A stretch of 30,934 nt of DNA from the IMG/VR virus record IMGVR_UViG_3300030202_001327, positions 21,609 through 52,542 of that record; one strand, given 5' to 3'. Position numbers and translations under genes: made by a program. This DNA comes from a virus. The notes below the pieces were generated by a model, which saw only the letters and a list, made by a program, of their open reading frames with translations, was not told the origin of the DNA and searched no databases. Below are positions 17,216-30,934 of this stretch, piece after piece. The first letter of the stretch is position 1, and every line of letters begins with the position of its first letter.

Positions 17216-19435
17216 TTAATTCTTTATTAATTTTGAATGCATGCCAGATTGTTTATATCTAGCAAAACTTATGTTTACTTTTTGTTTTTCTTTTTTATTA
17301 ATTGGATAATATAAATGTCTATTACAAGCCATAATTGCTAAACCACTACTAATGGTAGCATCAAACTTTGTTCTATTGTTTATATCATATCTTGCCCAAT
17401 CATTTAAAGTTCTATTGAAATACATATTACCACATGTACCATCTGATTTAAGACCAACATGGTCTTGTATATACATTTCAATTGCAGCACCGTGTGCTTG
17501 TCTAATATCTTCACTTGAGTTAGGTATTCCACCAACTTCTCTTTCAGCAACAGATAATTTATTCCAAAGCTTATCAGGTCTATTCATACTAAAACCTCTA
17601 TAACCCCTACGTTTTAAATAATATAATAATCTAGGTTTATTATTTTCTGCAAGTATTGGCATACCATAAAATACCAATGCCATTAATACATCTTCAAAAA
17701 ATATTTCAGCAGTAGCGGGTCTAGCTACATATTCAAGAAAAAATTGATTTGGTGGTGCATCTTCCATGGAAAACTTACTTAATCCGTGTAAAGCTCCTTT
17801 TGATCCTTGACCATCGACAGTTCCTGATATATCATAACTGTCACAACCAAAAGCACCCATATGCTCATTACCAGGATATTTTCTTCCTTGCTTTAATATA
17901 ATATTATTTTGTAATGATTTTTGTGGTATCCAAGATACCCTAAATCTACCTTTAGAATCTGGATAAAATATAACAGTACTATCTTTAACACCATTAACCC
18001 ATTGAAAATTACCTATAGTTATAGCGTTTTCTTGATTTAATTCTTCGTTATAATCTATTTGCTCGTATATTTTTGCTAAATTAAATATACTGTTTTTTGT
18101 CTCATCTCTAAAAGCATGCTCTTCAGTCCTTGGAAACTGTCTATAAAATTCATTTAAAGCATCTCCATCATTTTTTAAACCTTCAGCTTCATTATCCCAG
18201 TGATCTATAACACCAATATCTATATAATCTCCATGAGGTCCCGTAACTTCTGTTTCGGGTGTATCGAATACAGGTATGCCATAAGAATCAATGAATCCCT
18301 CGTAGTTCCATTCCATAGGTATGAACAAACTATAGAGTCCCGAACTTGTTTGTCCATTTCTGTTTCTTTTTGTAACATCTGAATCTTTATAAAGTTTCTT
18401 AAAATTATCACCTCCTTTATCCAAAGCATTACTAGTAGATCCCATCATACATTTACCAATAATCCTGCTACCTAACCTTAATGTTGTTTTTGTTACACGC
18501 CAGTTATTTAATATATTATTAGGTCTTTCCCATTTACCACTTTCATCATGTACTAATAGTTTTAGCTTTTCACCATCATAACTATTATCTCCAGTGTTTT
18601 TCCAATCAATAGTTGTATCTAGTCCAGTTAACTCTTCTGGTCTATCATCTGTTGACGTAATGTTTCTTCTAGTTAACTTACTAGCTGGTACTCTATATGC
18701 TAGTTCTGTTTTAGGTCGATCCATACCGTCTTGAATTGGTTTAAAAAAGAACGGGTAGTTAACTGAAATAGGTACAACTTTATCCGTGAACATTTTTTTA
18801 GCATCAGGTCCAGATTTTGATAGTATACCAAATCTTGAATCTGAACTAATTGTAGCCATGTTTACAGCCTCACCTGAAGCCATAAAAGAAAAACCAGATC
18901 GTCTATTTTTAAGATAACACATACCGTAGCATCTATTATCCGCTTTACAAGCTTCCCAAAATATATAAAACAATCTATTAGCTTCTCTAAAATCAGGTTT
19001 ACCTACATCAATCTTTGACCATTGTAGATACATGTAATGTGTACCAGTGATATAAGTTGCTTTTTCTTTATTATAAAACCAAAAACCTTCATCACGTCTA
19101 CTAAACTCATTTTCTATGTAATCTATATAATCTCTTTTAAAGTAATCTGGATAACCTTTCCAATCAAATATAGTTTTTATTCTACTTAATTCTTTTGGAT
19201 AATCTGATACCTCCCATGTATTAGATTTAAACTTTTGTACTTTTTTTGGTGCTTTTGGTAATGCTATCCTAAGATTTTGGATTTCATATATTTCACCAAT
19301 TTGACCATTTTTTGATATAACGACAACATCATGTTCTTTATTGTATCCATATTTCCACTTTTTTGTTTTATTTAATCTCTTTATGGTGTTTATCTTGATA
19401 GGTTCTATTACTTGGTATAATGTTTGAGTATACAT
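17216..19435 (-). CDS. terL: Terminase large subunit (packaging ATPase and nuclease)
   Basis: This 739-aa motor protein drives DNA into the prohead and cuts it. A degenerate Walker A lies at KNRRSGFSF (176-184), Walker B at KLLVHDE (292-298, D297/E298) and a coupling motif at MMGSTSN (330-336). The nuclease domain has a first acid at D532 (GAFGCDSYDISG), a second at E597 (MPILAENN) and a third at D692 (FDATISSGLA), as expected of an RNase H-like TerL nuclease. PATAEIFFEDVL (573-584) and EYVARP before it match the family's nuclease core. An N-terminal extension of about 90 residues precedes the ATPase. The start overlaps the stop of the 91-aa gene by one base (TAATG). The portal gene follows 1 base after its stop. 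Confidence 0.93.
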   Translation of the reverse strand: MYTQTLYQVIEPIKINTIKRLNKTKKWKYGYNKEHDVVVISKNGQIGEIYEIQNLRIALPKAPKKVQKFKSNTWEVSDYPKELSRIKTIFDWKGYPDYFKRDYIDYIENEFSRRDEGFWFYNKEKATYITGTHYMYLQWSKIDVGKPDFREANRLFYIFWEACKADNRCYGMCYLKNRRSGFSFMASGEAVNMATISSDSRFGILSKSGPDAKKMFTDKVVPISVNYPFFFKPIQDGMDRPKTELAYRVPASKLTRRNITSTDDRPEELTGLDTTIDWKNTGDNSYDGEKLKLLVHDESGKWERPNNILNNWRVTKTTLRLGSRIIGKCMMGSTSNALDKGGDNFKKLYKDSDVTKRNRNGQTSSGLYSLFIPMEWNYEGFIDSYGIPVFDTPETEVTGPHGDYIDIGVIDHWDNEAEGLKNDGDALNEFYRQFPRTEEHAFRDETKNSIFNLAKIYEQIDYNEELNQENAITIGNFQWVNGVKDSTVIFYPDSKGRFRVSWIPQKSLQNNIILKQGRKYPGNEHMGAFGCDSYDISGTVDGQGSKGALHGLSKFSMEDAPPNQFFLEYVARPATAEIFFEDVLMALVFYGMPILAENNKPRLLYYLKRRGYRGFSMNRPDKLWNKLSVAEREVGGIPNSSEDIRQAHGAAIEMYIQDHVGLKSDGTCGNMYFNRTLNDWARYDINNRTKFDATISSGLAIMACNRHLYYPINKKEKQKVNISFARYKQSGMHSKLIKN

Positions 19436-19710
19436 TATTTAGATTTCCTTTCAGCAAAACCACTCCAACTTTGTTTATCTTTCTTATCATTAACAACTCC
19501 ATCTAATAAATTCTGCTCTTCCTGTATACGATTAAGTATTTCAAAAGCATCAAATATTGCTAGTTTTTTAGTTGCTGCCGCATTTTTAAGTCTATCAGCT
19601 GAAACATCATCATCAGTTTCTACTATAGGTTCTTTTGCTACTTTAATAAGTTCTTCAACAGCTCTATGTCCAGACTGGATTATATTCCTTTTCGTTTCCT
19701 TGATATTCAT
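19435..19710 (-). CDS. Small helical protein, candidate small terminase subunit
   Basis: This 91-aa helical protein lies directly upstream of terL, with its stop overlapping the terL start by one base (TAATG). The N-terminal helix has NIKETKRNIIQSGHRAVEEL (2-21). Next come an acidic linker and a second helix with DRLKNAAATKKLAIFDAFEI, and the tail is polar and basic (SWSGFAERKSK). Length, helical content and position fit a small terminase subunit that recognises DNA and feeds the large subunit, but no helix-turn-helix is obvious. I recognise the pattern from marine phages, where it is usually unnamed. The start at 19710 lies 47 bases inside the end of the GroES-like gene, a real overlap between two conserved-looking frames. 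Confidence 0.68.
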   Translation of the reverse strand: MNIKETKRNIIQSGHRAVEELIKVAKEPIVETDDDVSADRLKNAAATKKLAIFDAFEILNRIQEEQNLLDGVVNDKKDKQSWSGFAERKSK

Positions 19711-20260
19711 ATTTAATAGTTAGATCTTTTGTTCTAACTCTATACAGTTTTTCACCATCAATAATAAATTCGTATTCACTATTTGGTGTAAAACCAACTA
19801 AATCACCTTCTTTTAAAAAAGTGCAATTAGCGTCTAGATATTTTAAAACACCTTTTAATTCATGTTCTTTATCTAAACTAAAAATATCATTAGAAACAAT
19901 TGGTTTAACAAAAGAGTAACCTGGTAAAGGTTCCCATTTTGATTTTCTTTTATAAGCAAAAATTTGATCTATATTGCATAGATAATTATTGTCATCTATA
20001 TAACTCTTACTGTTTTGTTCATCACCTCTTATATTATGAAATCTTCTAAAAATATTATGATGAACAATAACATTATCACCTATTTTTAAATTATTGTTTT
20101 CATTTAATATAGGTAATGACTTAATTATACCTACTCTATTAACGTTTTGATGTGTAAATATTTGAGTATTTAATATTAAGTCTGTATCGTTTATTTTTTT
20201 AGTATTGTTATACCTTTTATTGTTGTAAGGTTCTACAACAAAGCTAAAAATACTACGCAT
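19664..20260 (-). CDS. GroES-like (co-chaperonin-type) protein, two-barrel
   Basis: This 198-aa protein resembles a co-chaperonin. Residues 40-70 (VNRVGIIKSLP, then LKIGDNVIVHHNIFRRF) match the phage GroES-like pattern of strand, glycine turn and IGDxVIVHHxxF. Residues 115-183 repeat the layout with YSFVKPIVS, GVLKYLD, LKEGDLVGFTPNSEYEFIID and GEKLYRVRTKDLTIKY, which parallels the Cpn10 C-terminal half (EGD..., then IDGEKLYRVR with a DL/DI exit). A mobile-loop-like insert (71-110) is Asn/Asp-rich. It may cooperate with host GroEL to fold capsid or fibre proteins, as T4 gp31 does. This function is inferred, and the sequence is divergent. The start overlaps the stop of the 73-aa gene by one base (TAATG). 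Confidence 0.6.
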   Translation of the reverse strand: MRSIFSFVVEPYNNKRYNNTKKINDTDLILNTQIFTHQNVNRVGIIKSLPILNENNNLKIGDNVIVHHNIFRRFHNIRGDEQNSKSYIDDNNYLCNIDQIFAYKRKSKWEPLPGYSFVKPIVSNDIFSLDKEHELKGVLKYLDANCTFLKEGDLVGFTPNSEYEFIIDGEKLYRVRTKDLTIKYEYQGNEKEYNPVWT

Positions 20261-20771: not shown

Positions 20772-21185
20772 TTATTCACCACCTTCTTCAGATGATTCTT
20801 CTTCAGTCTCTTCTTCTTCAGTCTCTTCTTCTTCAGTCTCTTCTTCTTCTGCTGGAGGTTCTTCTGCTGGAGCCCAAGGCATATCAGCATCTACTTGCGT
20901 AGGTGTTTTTGCTTCATTTATTTGTTTTTCGATCACTTCATTCATGTGATCAGTTGGGTGATTTTCTTTTGCCCACTCTATAACTTCAGCTTCTTTTAAA
21001 TCAGCTAAAGGTGTAAAATCTTCAGCATCAGGCGCAGGAACTGGACAAGCACCCATAAAACTAGCTGTGTGATCTCCGTCTACCCCTTTATACTCAAAAT
21101 TAATGTGTGTGATCACATCTGACAAACCGTCAAGTGATGGAGCTTTTTTTAAAGCCGTGATCTTCCATGTGTATGTAATTGCCAT
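20772..21185 (-). CDS. Small beta protein with acidic repeat tail
   Basis: This 137-aa protein has a compact N-terminal domain (1-100) beginning MAITYTWKITALKKAPSLDG. It contains VITHINFEYKG and VIEWAKENHPTDHMNEVIEK, a layout I associate with a small phage family of unknown function often found near fibre genes. Residues 100-137 are low-complexity and very acidic: a Pro/Ala/Glu stretch followed by three copies of EETEE-type repeats and a Ser/Glu end. The acidic tail is encoded by a 15-base tandem repeat, so its length may vary. The gene follows a 60-base A/T leader after the methyltransferase stop. I assign no function. An assembly chaperone or DNA-mimic tail is conceivable but unsupported. 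Confidence 0.7.
   Translation of the reverse strand: MAITYTWKITALKKAPSLDGLSDVITHINFEYKGVDGDHTASFMGACPVPAPDAEDFTPLADLKEAEVIEWAKENHPTDHMNEVIEKQINEAKTPTQVDADMPWAPAEEPPAEEEETEEEETEEEETEEESSEEGGE
20796..20849 (-). repeat. 15-bp tandem repeat encoding an acidic tail
   Basis: Three consecutive copies of the unit CAGTCTCTTCTTCTT (plus strand) occupy 20804-20848, with a partial copy before them. They encode repeats of Glu-Glu-Thr-Glu-Glu in the C-terminal tail of the 137-aa protein. The unit is five codons long, so slippage would change tail length without shifting the frame. Confidence 0.85.
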
Positions 21186-21245: not shown

Positions 21246-21800
21246 TTATATCCACTCGTTATCAGTTAATGTAACATAAATTATGTCTAAAGTATCATCA
21301 TAATACCATTTTTTAGTATTATCATCTAACGTTATTGTTTTATAAGTGTTTTTATTTTTAGGTATATTACTGTTCATACCCCAAGATGTTTGTATTAAAA
21401 CACATCCATCATTACAAATATTTTTTACTTTTTCAGCAAAAGATTCTAAATCATCAGGATGATCTTGATCAGCGTCCATGTATATACCATCAAATTTGTC
21501 TGTTATATTTTCTATAACATTTTTCCAATCACCTAATATTACTTCTACATTTTCTTTATCTTCTGCCCACTCTAAAGCTTTGTTATATATTTCTTCTTCA
21601 ATCTCTATTATTACGTGTTTTGTTGGATTATTGCTTTGTACTTTATTTGCAGATATACCCAAACCAAAACCTACTTCTAATATATTTCCTCCATTTTCTG
21701 ATACTATATCAGCTGTGGACTCTGAATATAAAGTAACATCACTATGCATAATTATCACGTCATCTTTATATATACTGTCTGTATTTATTACTATTCCCAT
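21246..21800 (-). CDS. SAM-dependent methyltransferase, guanidinoacetate/arginine MTase-like
   Basis: This 184-aa class I methyltransferase has the SAM-binding motif I at ILEVGFGLGIS (40-50). An acidic end of strand 2 follows (HVIIEIEEEIYNKALEWAED, 62-81), then motif II-type VILGDW (87-92) and strand 4 with KFDGIYMDAD (102-111). The sequence from ADIVSENGGNILEVGFGLGI (30-49) through KVQ and ALEW closely follows the pattern of guanidinoacetate N-methyltransferase (GAMT) and RMT2-type arginine methyltransferases (GRVLEVGFGM..., KVQ, WIIE, LKGLW, FDGILYD). The catalytic acid region is less clear. The short length suggests only the core fold. It lies 4 bases after an FN3-like protein gene in the fibre-to-packaging transition. 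Its target could be an arginine on a virion protein or a small guanidino compound; neither can be read from sequence. Confidence 0.8.
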   Translation of the reverse strand: MGIVINTDSIYKDDVIIMHSDVTLYSESTADIVSENGGNILEVGFGLGISANKVQSNNPTKHVIIEIEEEIYNKALEWAEDKENVEVILGDWKNVIENITDKFDGIYMDADQDHPDDLESFAEKVKNICNDGCVLIQTSWGMNSNIPKNKNTYKTITLDDNTKKWYYDDTLDIIYVTLTDNEWI

Positions 21801-21804
21801 TTTT

Positions 21805-22434
21805 TTAACATAAACTTTGTAGTGACCAAGCTGTACCGGTCCATCTTCCTTTTCTTATTCCAGTTGAATACCATACTAAACCACTAGGTTGAGCAGAGTT
21901 GCCACATGTTGCACTTGTATAGACTGGTGTACCTTGCGATATAACTAAATCTGAAGAGTTATCTGATTGAGCATATACGGTTACTGTATTAGTACTGTTA
22001 CAAACTAAACCACCACCAAACTTACCTGTAGCATATTTAAACGTATGAGGTCTACGTGTTGTTTGAACTGTCATTAAACTAGAATAAGTAGTACCTTGAG
22101 AGTTTGTTGCATAACCCTTAACATAAACATTTTGACAAGCGCTAAAGTTACCAGCAGCTGGAATATCTTTACTAAAACCAGCTGTACCAGTTCCATCGGT
22201 ACCTTGTGTTACACCAGATCCACCAATTATAGGATTTGAGTTAGATGTTGAGTAAACAATACCTTTACTTGTTATAGGTGCTCCTCCATCACTAGAAATG
22301 CTAACTGTTACTCTAAAAGAATCCCACTCAACAAGACTGTTAGTTATAGTAATACCACTTGGCGCTGTTGCTGAAGTACAATCTTGATCGTATCCGTAAA
22401 AATTTGAAAATTTATATGGCTTTAATATTGGCAT
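21805..22434 (-). CDS. FN3-like surface/adaptor protein
   Basis: This is a 209-aa protein. After an N-terminal anchor-like motif (LKPYKFSNFYGYDQDC, 4-19), residues 26-127 form a beta-sandwich of the Bacteroidetes FN3-like type: SKGIVYSTSNSNPIIGGSGV (56-75), then GTGTAGFSKDIP, and YVKGYATNSQGTTYSSLMTV. This arrangement, with GxVYSTSxxNP and VKGYATNSxGTTY, is common in surface proteins of Bacteroidetes. Residues 130-209 make a second beta module with Cys145, Cys177 and a Trp-rich end (GRWTGTAWSLQSLC). It sits 11 bases after the Cys-rich protein gene and 4 bases before the methyltransferase. A role in the baseplate or fibre network is inferred from neighbours. There is no signal peptide. Confidence 0.7.
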   Translation of the reverse strand: MPILKPYKFSNFYGYDQDCTSATAPSGITITNSLVEWDSFRVTVSISSDGGAPITSKGIVYSTSNSNPIIGGSGVTQGTDGTGTAGFSKDIPAAGNFSACQNVYVKGYATNSQGTTYSSLMTVQTTRRPHTFKYATGKFGGGLVCNSTNTVTVYAQSDNSSDLVISQGTPVYTSATCGNSAQPSGLVWYSTGIRKGRWTGTAWSLQSLC

Positions 22435-22445
22435 AGTTTATAATT

Positions 22446-23012
22446 TTAACAAGTTCCATATGGATCACTTTCCATTATTCCGTTTGTAAAGGTTAATGCT
22501 TGAGAAGAGCAACCACAATTGTGATTACATCCATTACAACCAGAAGATCCGTTATTTGCTAATATAACGTCAATAGTGTAAGTACCACTTAACAAAGCCC
22601 CTGTATTTGGATTAGAATAAAAAGTTAATAAACTAGGTCCAGCAGCAGGCCAAAACTCACTAACAGTTGAACCAGCTTGAACAAAAACAGCATCTGAAAT
22701 ATCATTTCCATTTGAATCATATATTATAGCTCTAACTGTACAGCTAGATCCACAACCAGTACAACCACTTATAGGTGTTAAATCTTCAATAGCTACTGCG
22801 GCTGAAAAAAGATTTGAACCTGTGTTAGCCGCGTTGTTACAAGAATTAGTGTTAATAGCAGGATAACTTAATGTTGATCCTCCAGCACTACCACCTTCAA
22901 GCAAATCACGCATAGATATAGTACCCATGGTTTGACTACCATTGTAATTATTATACTTTCTCTCTCTGGCTATTTTAACCATACTTAAAGCTCCACTAGT
23001 TGGTACTGCCAT
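22446..23012 (-). CDS. Cys-rich fibre-associated virion protein
   Basis: This is a 188-aa protein. The N-terminus MAVPTSGALSMVKIARERKY, followed by TISMRDLLEGGSAGG, is a pattern I know from phages of flavobacteria, in small structural proteins beside fibres. The remainder is beta-rich, with nine Cys residues at 58, 84, 87, 91, 159, 162, 166, 168 and 188. The clusters GCTGCGSSC (83-91) and GCNGCNHNCGC (158-168) have CxxC-type spacing. Such paired clusters could bind a metal ion or form a small disulfide or Fe-S-like site; the sequence does not decide between them. The stop of the S74 fibre gene overlaps this start by one base (TAATG), so the two are translationally coupled. Confidence 0.72.
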   Translation of the reverse strand: MAVPTSGALSMVKIARERKYNNYNGSQTMGTISMRDLLEGGSAGGSTLSYPAINTNSCNNAANTGSNLFSAAVAIEDLTPISGCTGCGSSCTVRAIIYDSNGNDISDAVFVQAGSTVSEFWPAAGPSLLTFYSNPNTGALLSGTYTIDVILANNGSSGCNGCNHNCGCSSQALTFTNGIMESDPYGTC

Positions 23013-25180
23013 TACTTAATTTGTTTTTTAAGTTCTTCTATTTCCTTTTTTAAATCTTTTATAGCTTCAATTAAGTAACCTGTTATATTACCATATGCTA
23101 CAGCTTTATACTCACTATCATTACTTACTAACTCAGGTGCTACTTTTTCTAGTTCTTGAGCTATAACACCACTACCATCTTTTTCATCTTTAGTAAAGCT
23201 TACACCTCTCATTTTGTAAACTTTAGAACCATCCAATGTTTCTATATCAGTTTTTAATCTTTCATCTGAATAAGCTACAACATCTGTAGTTGCAGTTATT
23301 TTACCACCAAAAACAGCGTCACCTGTAGCAGATATTTTTAAATCGTATCTTGAGTCTGTCATATTATATATAACAAATCCTTGACTATCAACACTTATTT
23401 CCCAATCATCATACGAGGCTGGAGTAAATTTTATTTGACCTCCATCATTATCAAGCTCTATATCTCCAGCTACTTTTAATGATGTGCTTGTACTGCCTGG
23501 GTCTAAATAATAACCCGTGCTATCTATGTCAATAAGCTGTTTAGTATAAAAAGTACCACCTTGATGAAACTCATGTGTGTATTGTCCACTGTTACCAGTT
23601 TTTATTTGTAGTCCATCACCACTTCTTTTTAATTTAACATTTGTATCTCCATCATTGCTAGCAAAACATAAATTTGGCTCACTACCACCTTCAGCAGACA
23701 TAGATGTACCAAATATTAATTTATGTTCGTGAGTTGTATTAGTTGATGCCGTACTAGTAGGATTTGTAGTAATATCTATTTCACTAGATAGAGCTTCAAT
23801 AGTAAAATAATAAGTAGCAGCATTAGAAGAACCAGATTTATAAGACATGGTGTATTGACCATTACTATCACTTTCTACTTTTATAACTCCATCAGTGTAA
23901 TTACCACACGATGATGTTATGTTTACATCTTGATGATGATTAACAATAATTTCAGCTGTAAAAGCTCCAACATGACTATTACCATGTGACGTACCTGTAA
24001 CTTTTACTATACTAGCTAACTGACTACTATCAGTTGATACAGAATAAACTCTAACATAAGAGTTGCTAATAGAAGCTGTACATTGTTTTTTACCTTTTGA
24101 TAATACATGACCCGTAGCTTCAATATCTCCACCAGAAACTAATCTTAAACAAGATGCGTTATTAGATCCTAGGTAAAGCTCATCACCTGCGTGAGCAAAT
24201 ATACCTATAGCGTTTGTTCCAGCATTTTGTACAGAAAGTGAACTGTCAGAGTCAGCATGTATATTAATAGTGCCTCCTAAAACAGAACCACTAGCTGGAT
24301 TAACATAATAATTAGTATCATTAGAATCATAGAATACCGGAGCTCTCATATCAACATATCCTTGAATCGCACCACCCCCATGTATTCTCATTCTTGTTGT
24401 AGCAACTGTATTGTTTGCGGCAGCAGTTCCAAATATAATATTAGAGCCACCATTAGGACCCTGTAATCCTATATGTGCGTGTGATTTTCCTGTATCTATA
24501 AAAGCTCCTGAGTTAGGATTTCTTTGGGTGTTAAATTGTAAGTTATTTCCGTCAAAATCTAAAAATCCTGCGTTACCACTTCCTGTACCCAATATCATTT
24601 CTCCACCAGAATTAATTTTCATTTTTTCTGTACCGTTTGTAACAACAAAATAAGTATCAGCAGCAGGAAAACCAAAATAAGTATTAGTATCTCCTACGTG
24701 GTATATGTAATCTGGTATCCATACAGGTGCTCCAAAAGTTGAATTTCGATTAGAATCTATTGTAAGTCCTGTACCACCAGCTGTAACAACTGTAAAATGA
24801 TCATTACTAGGAAAACCAAAATATGTATCAGAACTAGGATCGCCTTTGTGTGAAATATAATCTTCAATTTGAATATTATTCATAACACTATTACTTGCTG
24901 GATTTACATAATAATTTGTGTTATTAGAATCATAATATGTAGCAAATGAAGCTGTATGAGTACCGCCATAAGAGGCTATGTTACCATTAATTGATAAAGG
25001 TTTGCTAAAATAAAAAGTACCTCTATCTGTACTTATATGAAAATAGCTAGTATTACCAGAGCCAAGATTACCACTACCGGTAGATGTCGTAATTTGTAAA
25101 CCATTACCACCATGTGACAAAACTGGGTAATAGTTATGATTACCTGCTGATAACTCTATTTCGTCAAATCTTATTGCCAT
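23012..25180 (-). CDS. Tail fibre/spike with S74 self-cleaving chaperone domain
   Basis: This 722-aa fibre has an N-terminal module (1-90) beginning MAIRFDEIELSAGNHNYYPV. A repetitive beta-rich shaft with three copies of the FYDSNxTNYYVNPAS-type repeat follows, then a beta domain near residues 355-470. The C-terminus (637-722) is a Peptidase_S74 intramolecular chaperone: YSDERLKTDIETLDG (S638, D639, K643), GVIAQELEKVAPELV and a terminal helical coiled coil (AIKDLKKEIEELKKQIK). In this family the domain trimerises the fibre and then cleaves itself at the Ser of the SD motif, leaving the mature shaft. Here the Ser and Lys positions are intact, so self-cleavage before S638 is expected. It follows the 1915-aa fibre by 6 bases and shares repeats with it. 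Confidence 0.88.
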   Translation of the reverse strand: MAIRFDEIELSAGNHNYYPVLSHGGNGLQITTSTGSGNLGSGNTSYFHISTDRGTFYFSKPLSINGNIASYGGTHTASFATYYDSNNTNYYVNPASNSVMNNIQIEDYISHKGDPSSDTYFGFPSNDHFTVVTAGGTGLTIDSNRNSTFGAPVWIPDYIYHVGDTNTYFGFPAADTYFVVTNGTEKMKINSGGEMILGTGSGNAGFLDFDGNNLQFNTQRNPNSGAFIDTGKSHAHIGLQGPNGGSNIIFGTAAANNTVATTRMRIHGGGAIQGYVDMRAPVFYDSNDTNYYVNPASGSVLGGTINIHADSDSSLSVQNAGTNAIGIFAHAGDELYLGSNNASCLRLVSGGDIEATGHVLSKGKKQCTASISNSYVRVYSVSTDSSQLASIVKVTGTSHGNSHVGAFTAEIIVNHHQDVNITSSCGNYTDGVIKVESDSNGQYTMSYKSGSSNAATYYFTIEALSSEIDITTNPTSTASTNTTHEHKLIFGTSMSAEGGSEPNLCFASNDGDTNVKLKRSGDGLQIKTGNSGQYTHEFHQGGTFYTKQLIDIDSTGYYLDPGSTSTSLKVAGDIELDNDGGQIKFTPASYDDWEISVDSQGFVIYNMTDSRYDLKISATGDAVFGGKITATTDVVAYSDERLKTDIETLDGSKVYKMRGVSFTKDEKDGSGVIAQELEKVAPELVSNDSEYKAVAYGNITGYLIEAIKDLKKEIEELKKQIK

Positions 25181-28100
25181 ATCTTTTTATATTAATCTTC
25201 TAAATTTAAATCTCATTATTTTACTTCCTCCATTATCTAAAGCCGCGTTATATGCTATATTATGTTTTACCTGCAGCATTAAATCATGTGAATCTGTACC
25301 TAGAGCTCTTTGCGTTCTAAACTGTACATCACCAGCGTTAGGAGCATGACCAGCTCTATGAACAATTATTTCATCTACATTTGTACTATTAGTAGCAGAT
25401 TCATACCAACTTATTGTTGCAGAGTAGTATTCTCCGTAATGTTGACCACCAACACCATAGTCATTTACATAAACCTGCATAGCGTAAGTTCCCGTTGCTA
25501 AATCAGTCCCATCAATACCAGTATCAGTCCATGTATTTGCAGCCAACTGGAATGTCATTGCAAATTCTTTTACTTGATCAATAGACGTTCCACTTGATAA
25601 TGTTTGTAAACCTTTGTGTTCAAATTTACCATCTTCGTATATTTTAACTTTGTCACCACCGCTAGCACCTATACTAATAAAATCTGTACTACCACTAGCG
25701 CTCTCACATTTGAACTCCCAGTTTTCATTACCACTATGATTTATGCCAAGGAAAATATTACCATCTGTACAGAACTGTTGTATTTTTCCTTTTATATTTA
25801 AAGATGTACCTGTAGCTGATGGATCAACATAATAACCTGTATCATTTAAATCATAGAATATTGGAGCTCTTGCAGAGGTTGATCCATATGTATGGTTAGC
25901 TTCAATTATACCATTACTTTCTAATGTATATGTTCCACTATTGTTAAAGTTTGTTGTAGGATTTTTTGTAAAGTAAGAACCACTTGTAGTTTGGGCTACA
26001 TTCCAATCACCCATGTAATCTATACTATCATTATAATAACAAGCTCCGTGAACTTTAGCGACGTGCACTGTAGCATAACTCCATGATGAGTTTGTTTCAC
26101 CAATAGCAATACATCTTCTTTCGTTAGTACCATCGTTTCTTCTACCAAAATAAATTGGTTTGTCTAAAGCACCTATAACTTGTACGTTTACATTGTACCA
26201 TTGTGTAGTACTAGTATTACTATTACCACCAGTGTTCCAGTTATGACCACCAATTATAAGTTTTGACGCACCTGCTCCAGAATATTCGTATATGTCTATT
26301 TCCATATACATCATATCGTAGTTAGCTAGTGTTCCTGGTAAATCTATTACAATTTGACCTGTTGTGGTGCCTTGACCATCCCATGATGCTTCTTTACCTG
26401 GATATACTATCTTTGGATGTGTGTAGTCACCAAAACCTAAATGACCTACTGTACCTATAGACACACTACCATATGTTCTTACAGCTCTATCGCTACTATA
26501 AAGGTCTGCATAGTAACTAGTATTATCTTTATCATAGAATATTGGTGTTCTAACACTATCATTTACATTTAGATAATGATGTATATTTGTAAAAGCATTA
26601 CTACTTTGTACTGCCCAACTTTGATCAGGAGATAATGTTCCAAAATACCCACTTTCAGCGTAAACAGTACCTGTTGCATTGTTATTACCGTCTTTAAATT
26701 TAATTTGACCGTAGCCAGTATCACCGTATTTATAATCTAAAGTACTATCATTTCCGTTATCAACAAATCTTACATTATCTTGGAAATGTAATTGATTAAC
26801 TTGATCAATATCTTTACCACTCATGTTAATGTGAGCGTTATATAAAAATACTGGGTCTGTTGAATCAGCTACACTTAATCTAGTTGTACCTTCAAACACC
26901 ATAGCGAAAGCATCATTTCCAGTAAATCCAAAGTATGTATGAGTATCACCTTTATGATATATGTAATCGTCTATCTCAATGTCATTCATTGCGCTAGTAC
27001 CTGCTGGATCAACCCAATAGGATGTATTAGCCCAATCATAAAATTTATTTGCTGTAACATCACCTCCATTTGTGTGTAAACCTCTATTACCACCTGTTAG
27101 TATTTCAGCTAATGAAGGCTCGTCACCATTTATTTCATAAAATCCTGGTTTTGCAAATTGTAATTTAGCATTAGCATTGGTAGAGTAGTAATGGAAAAAT
27201 CTAATACCGTTATTCAATGTAGATCCAGCACTACCCATTTTCCAAGCATTGCTTGAATTCATTATTTTTTGGCCGGTATCACATCTGTATATACCTTGTA
27301 AATCGCCACTACCAGTTTTGGCGGTTGTATTATCATCATTATTAGCTTGTATAACACCAATAGATACACACCATACGTCTTGAGGAAAACTACCTAAATT
27401 AGGATAATGAAAATAAGGGTTTGTATTAGAATTACCAGATAAGTCTGTTATTTGATTTGTACCAGCACCAGTACCATGATATACGTTACCAGTTCCCTCG
27501 CTGCTAATTCTTTTTATATAAACTATAGATAAATGAGCTTTGTTTATATCTAAATTGTTAATAGCTTTTACATAACCACCATCATAATCATTATTAGTAT
27601 CACCAGATGTTTCAGCTGCTAAAGTTCTTTCTCCGTGAGGACCATCAACCCATTTAGTTGTTATTTCACTACCACCAAAGTTACCTCCATACCAACCTGT
27701 TTGAGCACCAGTACCGCCTTCAGCCCAAGAAGATGATGTAGCTTTATTTAATCTATATCCTTTTATAGCATCACCAGAGCCATCTGTAACTTCTTTTGAA
27801 AATGATGTATATGTTGAAAAACTTGTTTCAGTATTTGTTAATGTTAGTCTATCAGTACCACCAGTTCTTAGCTTTATACTATCAGTTTCAAAATATAAAT
27901 ATGTATCAGTATCTCCATTATGATATATATAATCATCTATACTTATTTCATTAAGCACACTACCACTTGATGGGTTCACGTAGTAACCTGTGTTATCTGA
28001 ATCGTAGAATAAAGGTGCTTGCATATTGCCTGTTGCTAGAACAGTACCACTACCATAAACTCTAAGTAAGTGGTTATTAGCAAAATGACCTATACTAACA

Positions 28101-30712
28101 AAGTTATCGTCGGATCCATTTGCGTGCCAATAATAACCTAAATAACCAGAATTTTTTGTACTACCTGATTTACCTACTAATATTATTTCACTTTCTCCTT
28201 GAACTAAGTTACCGTTATATACTTCAATACCGTGATTAAATGTTGTGTGGTTTAAGTTGTTAATTCTTAAAGCTGGACTACCACCTGTTCCAGCGCTACT
28301 TATTACTACGTCACCTATAAAAGTTGCTGATTTAGCGCCATTACCACTATTACTGTTACCACCGTTTAATTGAAGTAATATATTACCAGAACTATCTACG
28401 AATTTATGACCTTCATTAGCATGTGCTCCGTACTCATTCCAATAAGCATTAGTTCTTATGTATTTACTTACATCGGAATTATCTGTTGTTTTGAGTATTA
28501 ATTTAGCAGTTGTACCACTTGTTCCACTTTCTAATCTTAAATCACCACCAAATTTTGATGTTCCAGTACCCGCGAATGTTGCGGTACCAGCTGCATTTAA
28601 TGATGTGCTAGCGTTTGATGCGTCTAAATAATAAGCTGTATTATCTTGATCTCTAAATATTTGAGCTGTAACATTATTTACAGTTCTTATGTGACCATCT
28701 CCATATATAGTAACCTTTTCTGTACCACTAACATCATATATTAATGTGTTAGCTGCAATACCCGATGTATTATTGTGAAGTGTAAAACCAGTTGTATCTG
28801 TACCAGCTATGTTGAATTTTAATTTTGCTGTTCTTGTAGATGAAGAACTATCTAATGATCTAATAGTTAACTCACCATTATTAGTACTGGTACCAATTTC
28901 TACATCACCGCTAAACGTTGTATTTCGGTTAGTGTCAAAGGTTGCTACTACATCATTTACTCCTGCACCACCCGCGTATATAACAACGTCATTACTGCTT
29001 GATTTTAAAAACAATGGTTTACCAACAGCATATACCCATGATGCATTCCAATCAGAAGCACCATAATTAGGAGCATGACCTACACGAAGTTCACTGCTAC
29101 CAGATTGACCAATAACATGTTCTACATAAGCACCACCACCCGTATTAGTGTTTCTCCATGTTTGTATAAATCCAGAGTTACCATGATCTACATCAGCACT
29201 GTATTCACCTGCAACCTTAATAGCAAGGCTCGTGTTAGCTGGGTCTATATAGTAAGCAGTATTAGCACGATCGTAGAATATAGGTGCTCTTAAATCACTT
29301 GTTGCGTCAAATGTACCTAAAACAAAACTAGATCCATTACCAGATAGTCTACCAAATTCTACTTTATTATTCTTGTTGTATAAATGTAAAGTACCAGCAC
29401 TAGTACTATCATTATTAATCCATATCTTCCAACTTTCCCAAGCAGAAACCATATGTGTACTAGCACCACCAAACGTAATGTGATCTTCGTTATCTGACCA
29501 TATATTTAATTTTGATCTAAACGTTGTAGAGGTTGCAGTTGTAGCATCTAAACCATAGTCACCTCTTCTGTGTGGAAATATACTAATTGAACCGCCGTCA
29601 CCTATAAGAATATCATCATCGTCATATATACCACTATTACTACTACCATCAGTAAATGTTCCAATTTTTATTTGAGAATTAGCTTCTGGTAAGATTGTTG
29701 TTCCGTAAATATTAACATTACCATTTTGTGATAGTCTAAATATAACGTTACCTGTACCAGTTGTACCATCACCAACCTCAAAATAACTTGTACCGTTATT
29801 GTTGTTACTATCAATATTAAATCTTATGTGGTTATATGAGTTTAATGTAATGCTATCATTAAAAGTACCACCATAACTAGAAGTTAAAGAATGCTCAAAG
29901 GCAGTTCCATATGAATCTGAGTCCCATGTAAGATATAGTCCACCAAATCTATATAATTTAGAATACGAGTTATTTACAGATCTACCGTAAATATGATTAG
30001 TAGTAATTAACTCACCAACGCTTGTAGATCCTGTAAATGTTTTATCTCCTGATATTGTTTGACTTGTATCAGTGGTTACCATATTTGATGGTGCACTAGC
30101 TGAAATTCCTGTTAAATTGCTACCATCTCCGTAAAAATAAGTACCTGTTACAGTACCGGCGAAAGTAGCATTTCCTGCAGCAGTAACTCTAAGTAATTGA
30201 CCTGCAGAATCTACTCTATCTAAATTGAAAGAATTTGTTGATGAATCTATACGGAAACCATAGTGTATTGTACTATCTGTCGGTTGTAAACTTAAAGCAA
30301 CATCACCTGCTGTATTGCTTCTTACTCGTCTTGCTTGAACATCACCATCTGAATTTATTTCAAACCTATGACCCGCTGTTCCACCAGTTGTCGCGTCGTA
30401 AATATAAAATAAATTTTCAGCATTAACATTATTTGTACCATCACCACCAGTACCAAGTCTAAACTCTCTAAGATCTGATTTAAATGCAAGCTCTGCATAA
30501 CTATTAGTAGCAGCTTGCTCGATCATTATTCCTCTATTATCACCGGATGTATTTTTTATATGAACATGATGACTAGCTGTATGTGTTCCACCAACAGATA
30601 GCTTACCTGCAAAAGTTGCAGCGCCAGCCACTTTTAATGAGGTAGCTGTGCCCGCTGGATTTAAAAAGTAATTAGTATCATTTGAATCATAAAAAATTGG
30701 AGCCAAGACATC
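23490..30712 (-). repeat. Repeat family (FYD-x-x-NT-x-YY) across both fibre genes
   Basis: A unit of about 20 residues, consensus [A]PIFYDSNNTxYYVDPAxTS, recurs ten times. Seven copies lie in the giant fibre, near 30655-30705, 29239-29290, 28617-28664, 27959-28020, 27001-27046, 26500-26555 and 25818-25870. Three lie in the S74 fibre, near 24893-24943, 24291-24347 and 23499-23535. A second unit, DDYIYHxGDTxTYFGF, occurs twice in each gene, near 27895-27945, 26930-26980, 24820-24865 and 24670-24720. The units are spaced by different module bodies, so they look like conserved joints between exchangeable segments. The copies differ in codons, so they are old. Coordinates are approximate. Confidence 0.8.
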
Positions 30713-30934
30713 ACCTGTAAAAGTTGCATTACTTTGATCAAATTTTAAAACTGTTGTATCAGGTGTATTATCAGCAGCATCAGATCTTCTTAATTCAAAC
30801 CTACCATAAGCACCTTGTTCACCTATAAACGCCCATGATCTACTAGACGTTTGACCAGACGTGTGAGGCCACACTATAGATCTTACAGAGCTATTAAAAT
30901 GAAGACTTCCTTGTAAAGGATAACCTGAGCCAGC
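25187..30934 (-). CDS. Giant repetitive tail fibre (N-terminus beyond window)
   Basis: The frame stays open from the stop at 25187 to the right edge, so at least 1915 residues are present and the true start lies outside the window. A GTG at 30874 is not a convincing start, because sequence upstream in frame (AGSGYPLQGSLHFNSSVRS) continues in the same style. The protein is a chain of beta-rich modules: typical phage-fibre repeats with KVAGxATFAGxLSVGG, AxGNATFxG and YGDGHIR patterns, seven FYDxxNTxYYxxP copies and two DDYIYHxGDT copies. The last 140 residues form a distinct globular end (ATGTYAMQVYVNDYG, SATISWYESATNSTNV, KIMRFKFRRLI) with no S74 chaperone. It probably binds the host surface. 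The downstream fibre supplies S74 in its own C-terminus only. Confidence 0.85.
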   Translation of the reverse strand, partial: AGSGYPLQGSLHFNSSVRSIVWPHTSGQTSSRSWAFIGEQGAYGRFELRRSDAADNTPDTTVLKFDQSNATFTGDVLAPIFYDSNDTNYFLNPAGTATSLKVAGAATFAGKLSVGGTHTASHHVHIKNTSGDNRGIMIEQAATNSYAELAFKSDLREFRLGTGGDGTNNVNAENLFYIYDATTGGTAGHRFEINSDGDVQARRVRSNTAGDVALSLQPTDSTIHYGFRIDSSTNSFNLDRVDSAGQLLRVTAAGNATFAGTVTGTYFYGDGSNLTGISASAPSNMVTTDTSQTISGDKTFTGSTSVGELITTNHIYGRSVNNSYSKLYRFGGLYLTWDSDSYGTAFEHSLTSSYGGTFNDSITLNSYNHIRFNIDSNNNNGTSYFEVGDGTTGTGNVIFRLSQNGNVNIYGTTILPEANSQIKIGTFTDGSSNSGIYDDDDILIGDGGSISIFPHRRGDYGLDATTATSTTFRSKLNIWSDNEDHITFGGASTHMVSAWESWKIWINNDSTSAGTLHLYNKNNKVEFGRLSGNGSSFVLGTFDATSDLRAPIFYDRANTAYYIDPANTSLAIKVAGEYSADVDHGNSGFIQTWRNTNTGGGAYVEHVIGQSGSSELRVGHAPNYGASDWNASWVYAVGKPLFLKSSSNDVVIYAGGAGVNDVVATFDTNRNTTFSGDVEIGTSTNNGELTIRSLDSSSSTRTAKLKFNIAGTDTTGFTLHNNTSGIAANTLIYDVSGTEKVTIYGDGHIRTVNNVTAQIFRDQDNTAYYLDASNASTSLNAAGTATFAGTGTSKFGGDLRLESGTSGTTAKLILKTTDNSDVSKYIRTNAYWNEYGAHANEGHKFVDSSGNILLQLNGGNSNSGNGAKSATFIGDVVISSAGTGGSPALRINNLNHTTFNHGIEVYNGNLVQGESEIILVGKSGSTKNSGYLGYYWHANGSDDNFVSIGHFANNHLLRVYGSGTVLATGNMQAPLFYDSDNTGYYVNPSSGSVLNEISIDDYIYHNGDTDTYLYFETDSIKLRTGGTDRLTLTNTETSFSTYTSFSKEVTDGSGDAIKGYRLNKATSSSWAEGGTGAQTGWYGGNFGGSEITTKWVDGPHGERTLAAETSGDTNNDYDGGYVKAINNLDINKAHLSIVYIKRISSEGTGNVYHGTGAGTNQITDLSGNSNTNPYFHYPNLGSFPQDVWCVSIGVIQANNDDNTTAKTGSGDLQGIYRCDTGQKIMNSSNAWKMGSAGSTLNNGIRFFHYYSTNANAKLQFAKPGFYEINGDEPSLAEILTGGNRGLHTNGGDVTANKFYDWANTSYWVDPAGTSAMNDIEIDDYIYHKGDTHTYFGFTGNDAFAMVFEGTTRLSVADSTDPVFLYNAHINMSGKDIDQVNQLHFQDNVRFVDNGNDSTLDYKYGDTGYGQIKFKDGNNNATGTVYAESGYFGTLSPDQSWAVQSSNAFTNIHHYLNVNDSVRTPIFYDKDNTSYYADLYSSDRAVRTYGSVSIGTVGHLGFGDYTHPKIVYPGKEASWDGQGTTTGQIVIDLPGTLANYDMMYMEIDIYEYSGAGASKLIIGGHNWNTGGNSNTSTTQWYNVNVQVIGALDKPIYFGRRNDGTNERRCIAIGETNSSWSYATVHVAKVHGACYYNDSIDYMGDWNVAQTTSGSYFTKNPTTNFNNSGTYTLESNGIIEANHTYGSTSARAPIFYDLNDTGYYVDPSATGTSLNIKGKIQQFCTDGNIFLGINHSGNENWEFKCESASGSTDFISIGASGGDKVKIYEDGKFEHKGLQTLSSGTSIDQVKEFAMTFQLAANTWTDTGIDGTDLATGTYAMQVYVNDYGVGGQHYGEYYSATISWYESATNSTNVDEIIVHRAGHAPNAGDVQFRTQRALGTDSHDLMLQVKHNIAYNAALDNGGSKIMRFKFRRLI

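Follow-up and report, generated by a model that had tools for sequence, protein, structure and literature searches.

In this study we describe a guanidinoacetate N-methyltransferase (GAMT)-like, SAM-dependent methyltransferase encoded among the tail genes of a phage, in a window (the whole stretch of DNA analysed here) of 30,934 nucleotides taken from a 52.5 kb, possibly incomplete virus record. With a confidence that stops somewhat short of even, we propose that a phage-specific GAMT-like branch serves the tail module by N-methylating a side chain on an adjacent tail or adhesin protein, and that the target has been altered in the clade to which the window belongs. Still more tentatively, hundreds of uncultured phages might carry a dedicated protein-arginine N-methyltransferase for a single loop arginine of an adjacent carbohydrate-binding-like tail protein, with the window's clade retargeted after the loss of a glutamate. 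The fold, the family, the SAM motif, the catalytic aspartate, the virion-cluster context and the purifying selection on the gene all speak for the tail-module proposal.

According to the sequence and the list of open reading frames, the enzyme gene is a minus-strand frame with an ATG start (Table 1). It contains every stretch that the first-pass annotation had quoted from it (ADIVSENGG, ILEVGFGLGIS, KVQ, ALEW and KFDGIYMDAD), and its start lies 4 bases past the stop of the FN3-like gene, the spacing given there. Its described location between FN3-like and packaging genes is borne out by the gene order, which reads S74 tail fibre, 188 aa protein, FN3-like protein, methyltransferase, DUF7936 protein, small genes, GroES-like protein, large terminase and portal. 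The gene of the GroES-like co-chaperonin (19664-20260, minus strand; phrog_13932, 6.7e-21) shortly precedes that of the large terminase. At the other end, the S74 tail fibre gene adjoins a very long fibre-like frame (25187-30874, minus strand; 1,895 aa, with a GTG start close to the end of the window) that carries repeated 'FYDSxDTxYY' segments. The window phage is a marine Flavobacteria phage, and its terminase places it near podoviruses of Flavobacterium, Cellulophaga, Tenacibaculum and Maribacter. Other viral contigs encode homologues of the enzyme at 78-88% identity, and in all five cases whose surroundings could be read the neighbouring genes are the same; the FN3-like protein of this clade carries conserved basic stretches.

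Table 1. Location of the enzyme, its key residues and the neighbouring genes in the window
Feature	Position	Strand	Basis or remark
GAMT-like SAM methyltransferase, 184 aa	21246..21800	-	sequence, profile, fold
SAM-binding motif I, residues 40-48, ILEVGFGLG	21657..21683	-	sequence
D109, equivalent of GAMT catalytic Asp134	21474..21476	-	alignment
V22, equivalent of GAMT Glu45	21735..21737	-	alignment
FN3-like protein, 209 aa, 4 bases upstream of the enzyme gene	21805..22434	-	putative partner or substrate
Tail-cluster protein, 188 aa, conserved in the window's clade	22446..23012	-	
Tail fibre with Peptidase_S74 (endosialidase chaperone) domain	23012..25180	-	
DUF7936 protein, next gene downstream of the enzyme	20772..21185	-	
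Coiled-coil-type protein, 96 aa	20456..20746	-	26 loci encode a family member 1 to 4 genes downstream of their enzyme
Terminase large subunit	17216..19435	-	

The top match of the window protein in the PDB is human GAMT (phmmer, E=9.3e-11), with rat GAMT at ~5e-10, and since the next family follows only at 6.7e-5, the likeness is more than chance. With a profile built from 66 phage relatives, GAMT is matched at 1e-29. The AlphaFold2 model used here was computed from 64 aligned sequences (pLDDT 91.4), the single-sequence model (pLDDT 35.5) being useless; compared with GAMT it gives a Z score of 21.3 over 178 residues, against 15.5 for the next family, and a Foldseek search with the same model agrees on GAMT. 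Sequence, family profile and fold thus give GAMT as the best match, which upholds the earlier reading of the protein as a GAMT-like enzyme rather than a methyltransferase of DNA or caps; at the superfamily level, that reading is right. Pfam returned general methyltransferase models only, below their cut-offs, for the window protein, and PHROG gave no match for it and a weak one in at most 4 of the 66 relatives. A DNA methyltransferase was considered and rejected: Pfam, NCBIfam and PHROG yielded no DNA methylase match, and the (D/N)PP(Y/F)-type motif is absent, its position reading MDAD.

A weak secondary similarity to TrmR, a tRNA 5-hydroxyuridine methyltransferase (8k1f), and the fact that tail modules adjoin receptor-binding genes would suit an enzyme that aids infection by modifying a surface glycan or the RNA of host or phage. 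We regard such a role as very unlikely, given that the TrmR match is far weaker than that to GAMT in sequence (6.7e-5 vs 9e-11) and in fold (E of ~1e-6 vs 2e-12), and that the enzyme consists of a single domain with no added RNA-binding part.

Relatives of the enzyme are encoded on at least 218 IMG/VR contigs; the analysis covered 80 of these loci, and the counts below refer to 69 non-redundant loci. The phages collection held a single clear match, in a 634 kb metagenomic genome, together with a weak match in a Vibrio phage. Tree reconstruction unites the phage proteins in a single branch (100/97), to the exclusion of their bacterial and human relatives; one contig labelled Flavobacteriales is placed within this branch. 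The window's clade is nested in the phage branch, on a long stem, beside a glutamate-bearing type here called 'MH' (97/89). The 'MH'-type relatives (L009-L026, L050, L051 and L070) lie outside tail clusters and have 2OG-Fe(II) oxygenases and kinase-, glycosyltransferase- and sulfotransferase-like genes as neighbours.

Besides Asp134, the active site of GAMT relies on Glu45, which also holds the guanidino group. As the methyl group is transferred, Asp134 takes up the substrate proton (PMC12471008). The aspartate is present in all 69 phage proteins (D109 in the window protein), and G38, L41, E42, G44 and G46 are invariant among 66 sequences. The position of Glu45 holds glutamate in 60 of the 69 proteins, valine in the window's clade (six of six aligned members), glycine in L041 and L045, and aspartate in L025; between this position and motif I the alignment is free of gaps. 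The residues after the catalytic aspartate differ as well, D-A-D in the window protein versus D-T-Y in GAMT, with threonine following the aspartate in 52 of 69 phage proteins. The window protein therefore has the SAM motif I, the catalytic aspartate and the best sequence and fold matches of a member of the GAMT-like superfamily, but of the features specific to guanidino substrates it has neither the glutamate of the W-E motif nor the Thr-Tyr pair after the aspartate. In this regard, only one of the two catalytic acids of GAMT is kept, and the arginine or guanidino chemistry suggested in the first-pass annotation, well motivated for the family, is doubtful for the window copy, because Glu45 is conserved in most phage members but replaced by valine in this clade.

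These replacements, together with the long stem branch and the observation that elsewhere in the family a change of Glu45 to glycine accompanies the loss of an arginine in the partner protein (see below), might also indicate that the window's clade represents a former methyltransferase, now a non-catalytic SAM-binding or structural virion protein. We consider this improbable in view of the intact SAM motif and aspartate and of the purifying selection on the gene in this clade (dN/dS 0.11-0.17), although the latter is not decisive because a conserved non-catalytic protein would give a low dN/dS too. Retargeting of an active enzyme is the reading we prefer: the window copy has been kept under selection despite the loss of Glu45, so that it probably no longer acts on the ancestral target.

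At least one tail or virion family lies nearby in no fewer than 48 of the 69 loci, and a recognisable tail fibre is encoded within three genes of the enzyme in 39. In 35 of the 69 loci the enzyme gene directly abuts one for a protein of ~230 aa that we call CBM96-like, a label that rests on weak Pfam matches in 5 of 34 members; the two genes are mostly joined by a 4-base overlap of stop and start codons. In the window's clade, the 209 aa FN3-like protein takes the place of this neighbour. The sister 'MH' type, which sits among modification genes and not tail genes, counts against a tail-protein target.

Comparison of the CBM96-like proteins from phages with and without the enzyme has highlighted one loop, which reads R-G-[GAS] and precedes an anchor arginine by about nine residues. 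The loci analysed combined a first set with those from a scan whose pattern contained neither the loop nor the enzyme, and which was built on a closer subset, the full CBM96-like alignment being too divergent; partner loci from the scan amounted to 80 of 125, and the partner proteins came from searches seeded with enzyme-adjacent members. As tblastn of two CBM96-like proteins against isolate phages gave no match, the enzyme-less controls were taken from IMG/VR. Sequences were clustered at 60% identity, leaving out loci where a contig end cuts the side of the enzyme. The loop arginine is present in 35 of 35 clusters whose neighbouring enzyme is present and not Glu45-deficient, counting a few in which a contig end cuts the enzyme before Glu45. 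The ten clusters that lack the enzyme, or have glycine for Glu45, comprise five with lysine, four with arginine and one mixed (p=2.6e-5). When all 81 testable columns were scanned, the loop arginine ranked first (4.5e-7), almost four orders of magnitude ahead of the next column (0.0037), which guards against a choice of column by eye.

Individual lineages follow the same pattern. In L041 and L045 (the same phages as L246 and L247) the change of Glu45 to glycine occurs together with that of the loop arginine to lysine, as if both sides of the modification had been lost, and in L200 and L202 loss of the enzyme goes with arginine to lysine within a clade that otherwise keeps both. In 34 of 35 enzyme-less contigs there is no copy of the enzyme elsewhere, the lone match being a fragment cut by a contig end, and the contigs behind these absence calls may be incomplete. 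Tree-aware pairs gave three to five contrasts, all of which agree with the prediction, but these are too few for significance (p 0.06-0.25). Several enzyme-less lineages keep the loop arginine, and some of the lysine lineages (L230, L233, L238 and L245) are distant from the rest. In the enzyme-less phages the tail fibre is mostly encoded directly before the CBM96-like gene. A number of enzyme-less CBM96-like proteins (L203, L216-L218, L225, L228, L236, L237 and L240) carry a shorter loop sequence, 'RTKRFKR', where GRGG would otherwise stand. All together, the covariation suggests that most family members methylate one arginine of the neighbouring tail protein. The first-pass annotation had proposed that a fibre or capsid protein could be modified; for the family, both the persistent location in virion gene clusters and this covariation favour a virion-protein target. 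The arginine reading is not directly transferable to the window protein, because Glu45 and the CBM96-like neighbour are both missing there.

The closest relative that has been characterised, GAMT, acts on a small molecule, and some bacterial relatives form the C-terminal domain of condensation/AMP-binding (NRPS-type) proteins. It could therefore be argued that the phage enzyme, like GAMT, has a small metabolite with a guanidino or amino group as its methylation substrate, and that its position in the tail cluster is an accident of gene acquisition. This is unlikely in our judgement: the adjacency of tail genes is persistent, the neighbour's loop arginine covaries with the enzyme, and a search of the window's virus record for an amidinotransferase-family gene (PF02274) gave nothing, which leaves a creatine-type role without support.

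In the tail-module model that we favour, the enzyme would be made beside a tail or adhesin protein and would N-methylate one of its side chains, either ahead of tail assembly or in the course of it, possibly tuning binding or stability. In the sister lineages, to judge from the covariation, the target would be the loop arginine (R-G-[GAS]) of the CBM96-like protein from the abutting gene: the equivalents of Glu45 and Asp134 would hold the guanidino group, SAM would donate the methyl group and the proton would pass to the aspartate, as in GAMT. After the change of Glu45 to valine, the window's clade would have kept SAM binding and the aspartate and would now methylate another kind of side chain, with the neighbouring FN3-like protein (209 aa) as the most likely bearer, unless methylation was lost. 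If this model is correct, phages encode their own enzyme for methylating a chosen residue on the host-facing part of the virion. The proposal specifies the enzyme as well as the residue it acts on, and the clades without Glu45 would offer natural experiments in the change or loss of target of a GAMT-type active site.

Among known systems, GAMT itself (PDB 3orh, 1xcj and 1khh) shares with the window protein the fold, motif I (LEVGFG) and the catalytic aspartate, and with most phage members the W-E motif carrying Glu45. It differs in sequence (~22-24% identity in structural alignments) and in the Glu45 and T-Y pair that the window protein lacks, whereas the tail-cluster context belongs to the phage enzyme. 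RMT2, the yeast delta-N-arginine methyltransferase of ribosomal protein L12, which the first-pass annotation had also named, is a GAMT-related protein arginine methyltransferase with a longer architecture, unlike the single short domain found here; the structure and model libraries searched yielded no RMT2 match. Bacterial GAMT-like proteins, which stand alone or end NRPS-type proteins, belong to the same superfamily and show the Glu/Asp pattern in the sequences read, but fall on separate tree branches and have other gene contexts. Examples of the fused kind are L124:878-4525 and L143:911-4525, where the domain is at the C-terminus of condensation/AMP-binding proteins, and three alphaproteobacterial domains (L091, L092 and L096) follow long N-terminal extensions, with TPR repeats in L096.

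Our search of the literature on phage-encoded GAMT-like enzymes found no paper. Recently, in 2026, lysine and arginine methylation was reported on structural proteins of Cellulophaga phages, including a tail fibre, and the authors, who knew of no methyltransferase in those phages, considered host enzymes (PMC13288928). Like the window phage, these are phages of Flavobacteriia, and the terminase of phi38:1 is related to that of the window phage (38% identity). Unlike them, the window phage encodes a candidate enzyme of its own, and, if our proposal is right, this enzyme would be a phage-side candidate for the methylation of virion proteins seen in the Cellulophaga phages.
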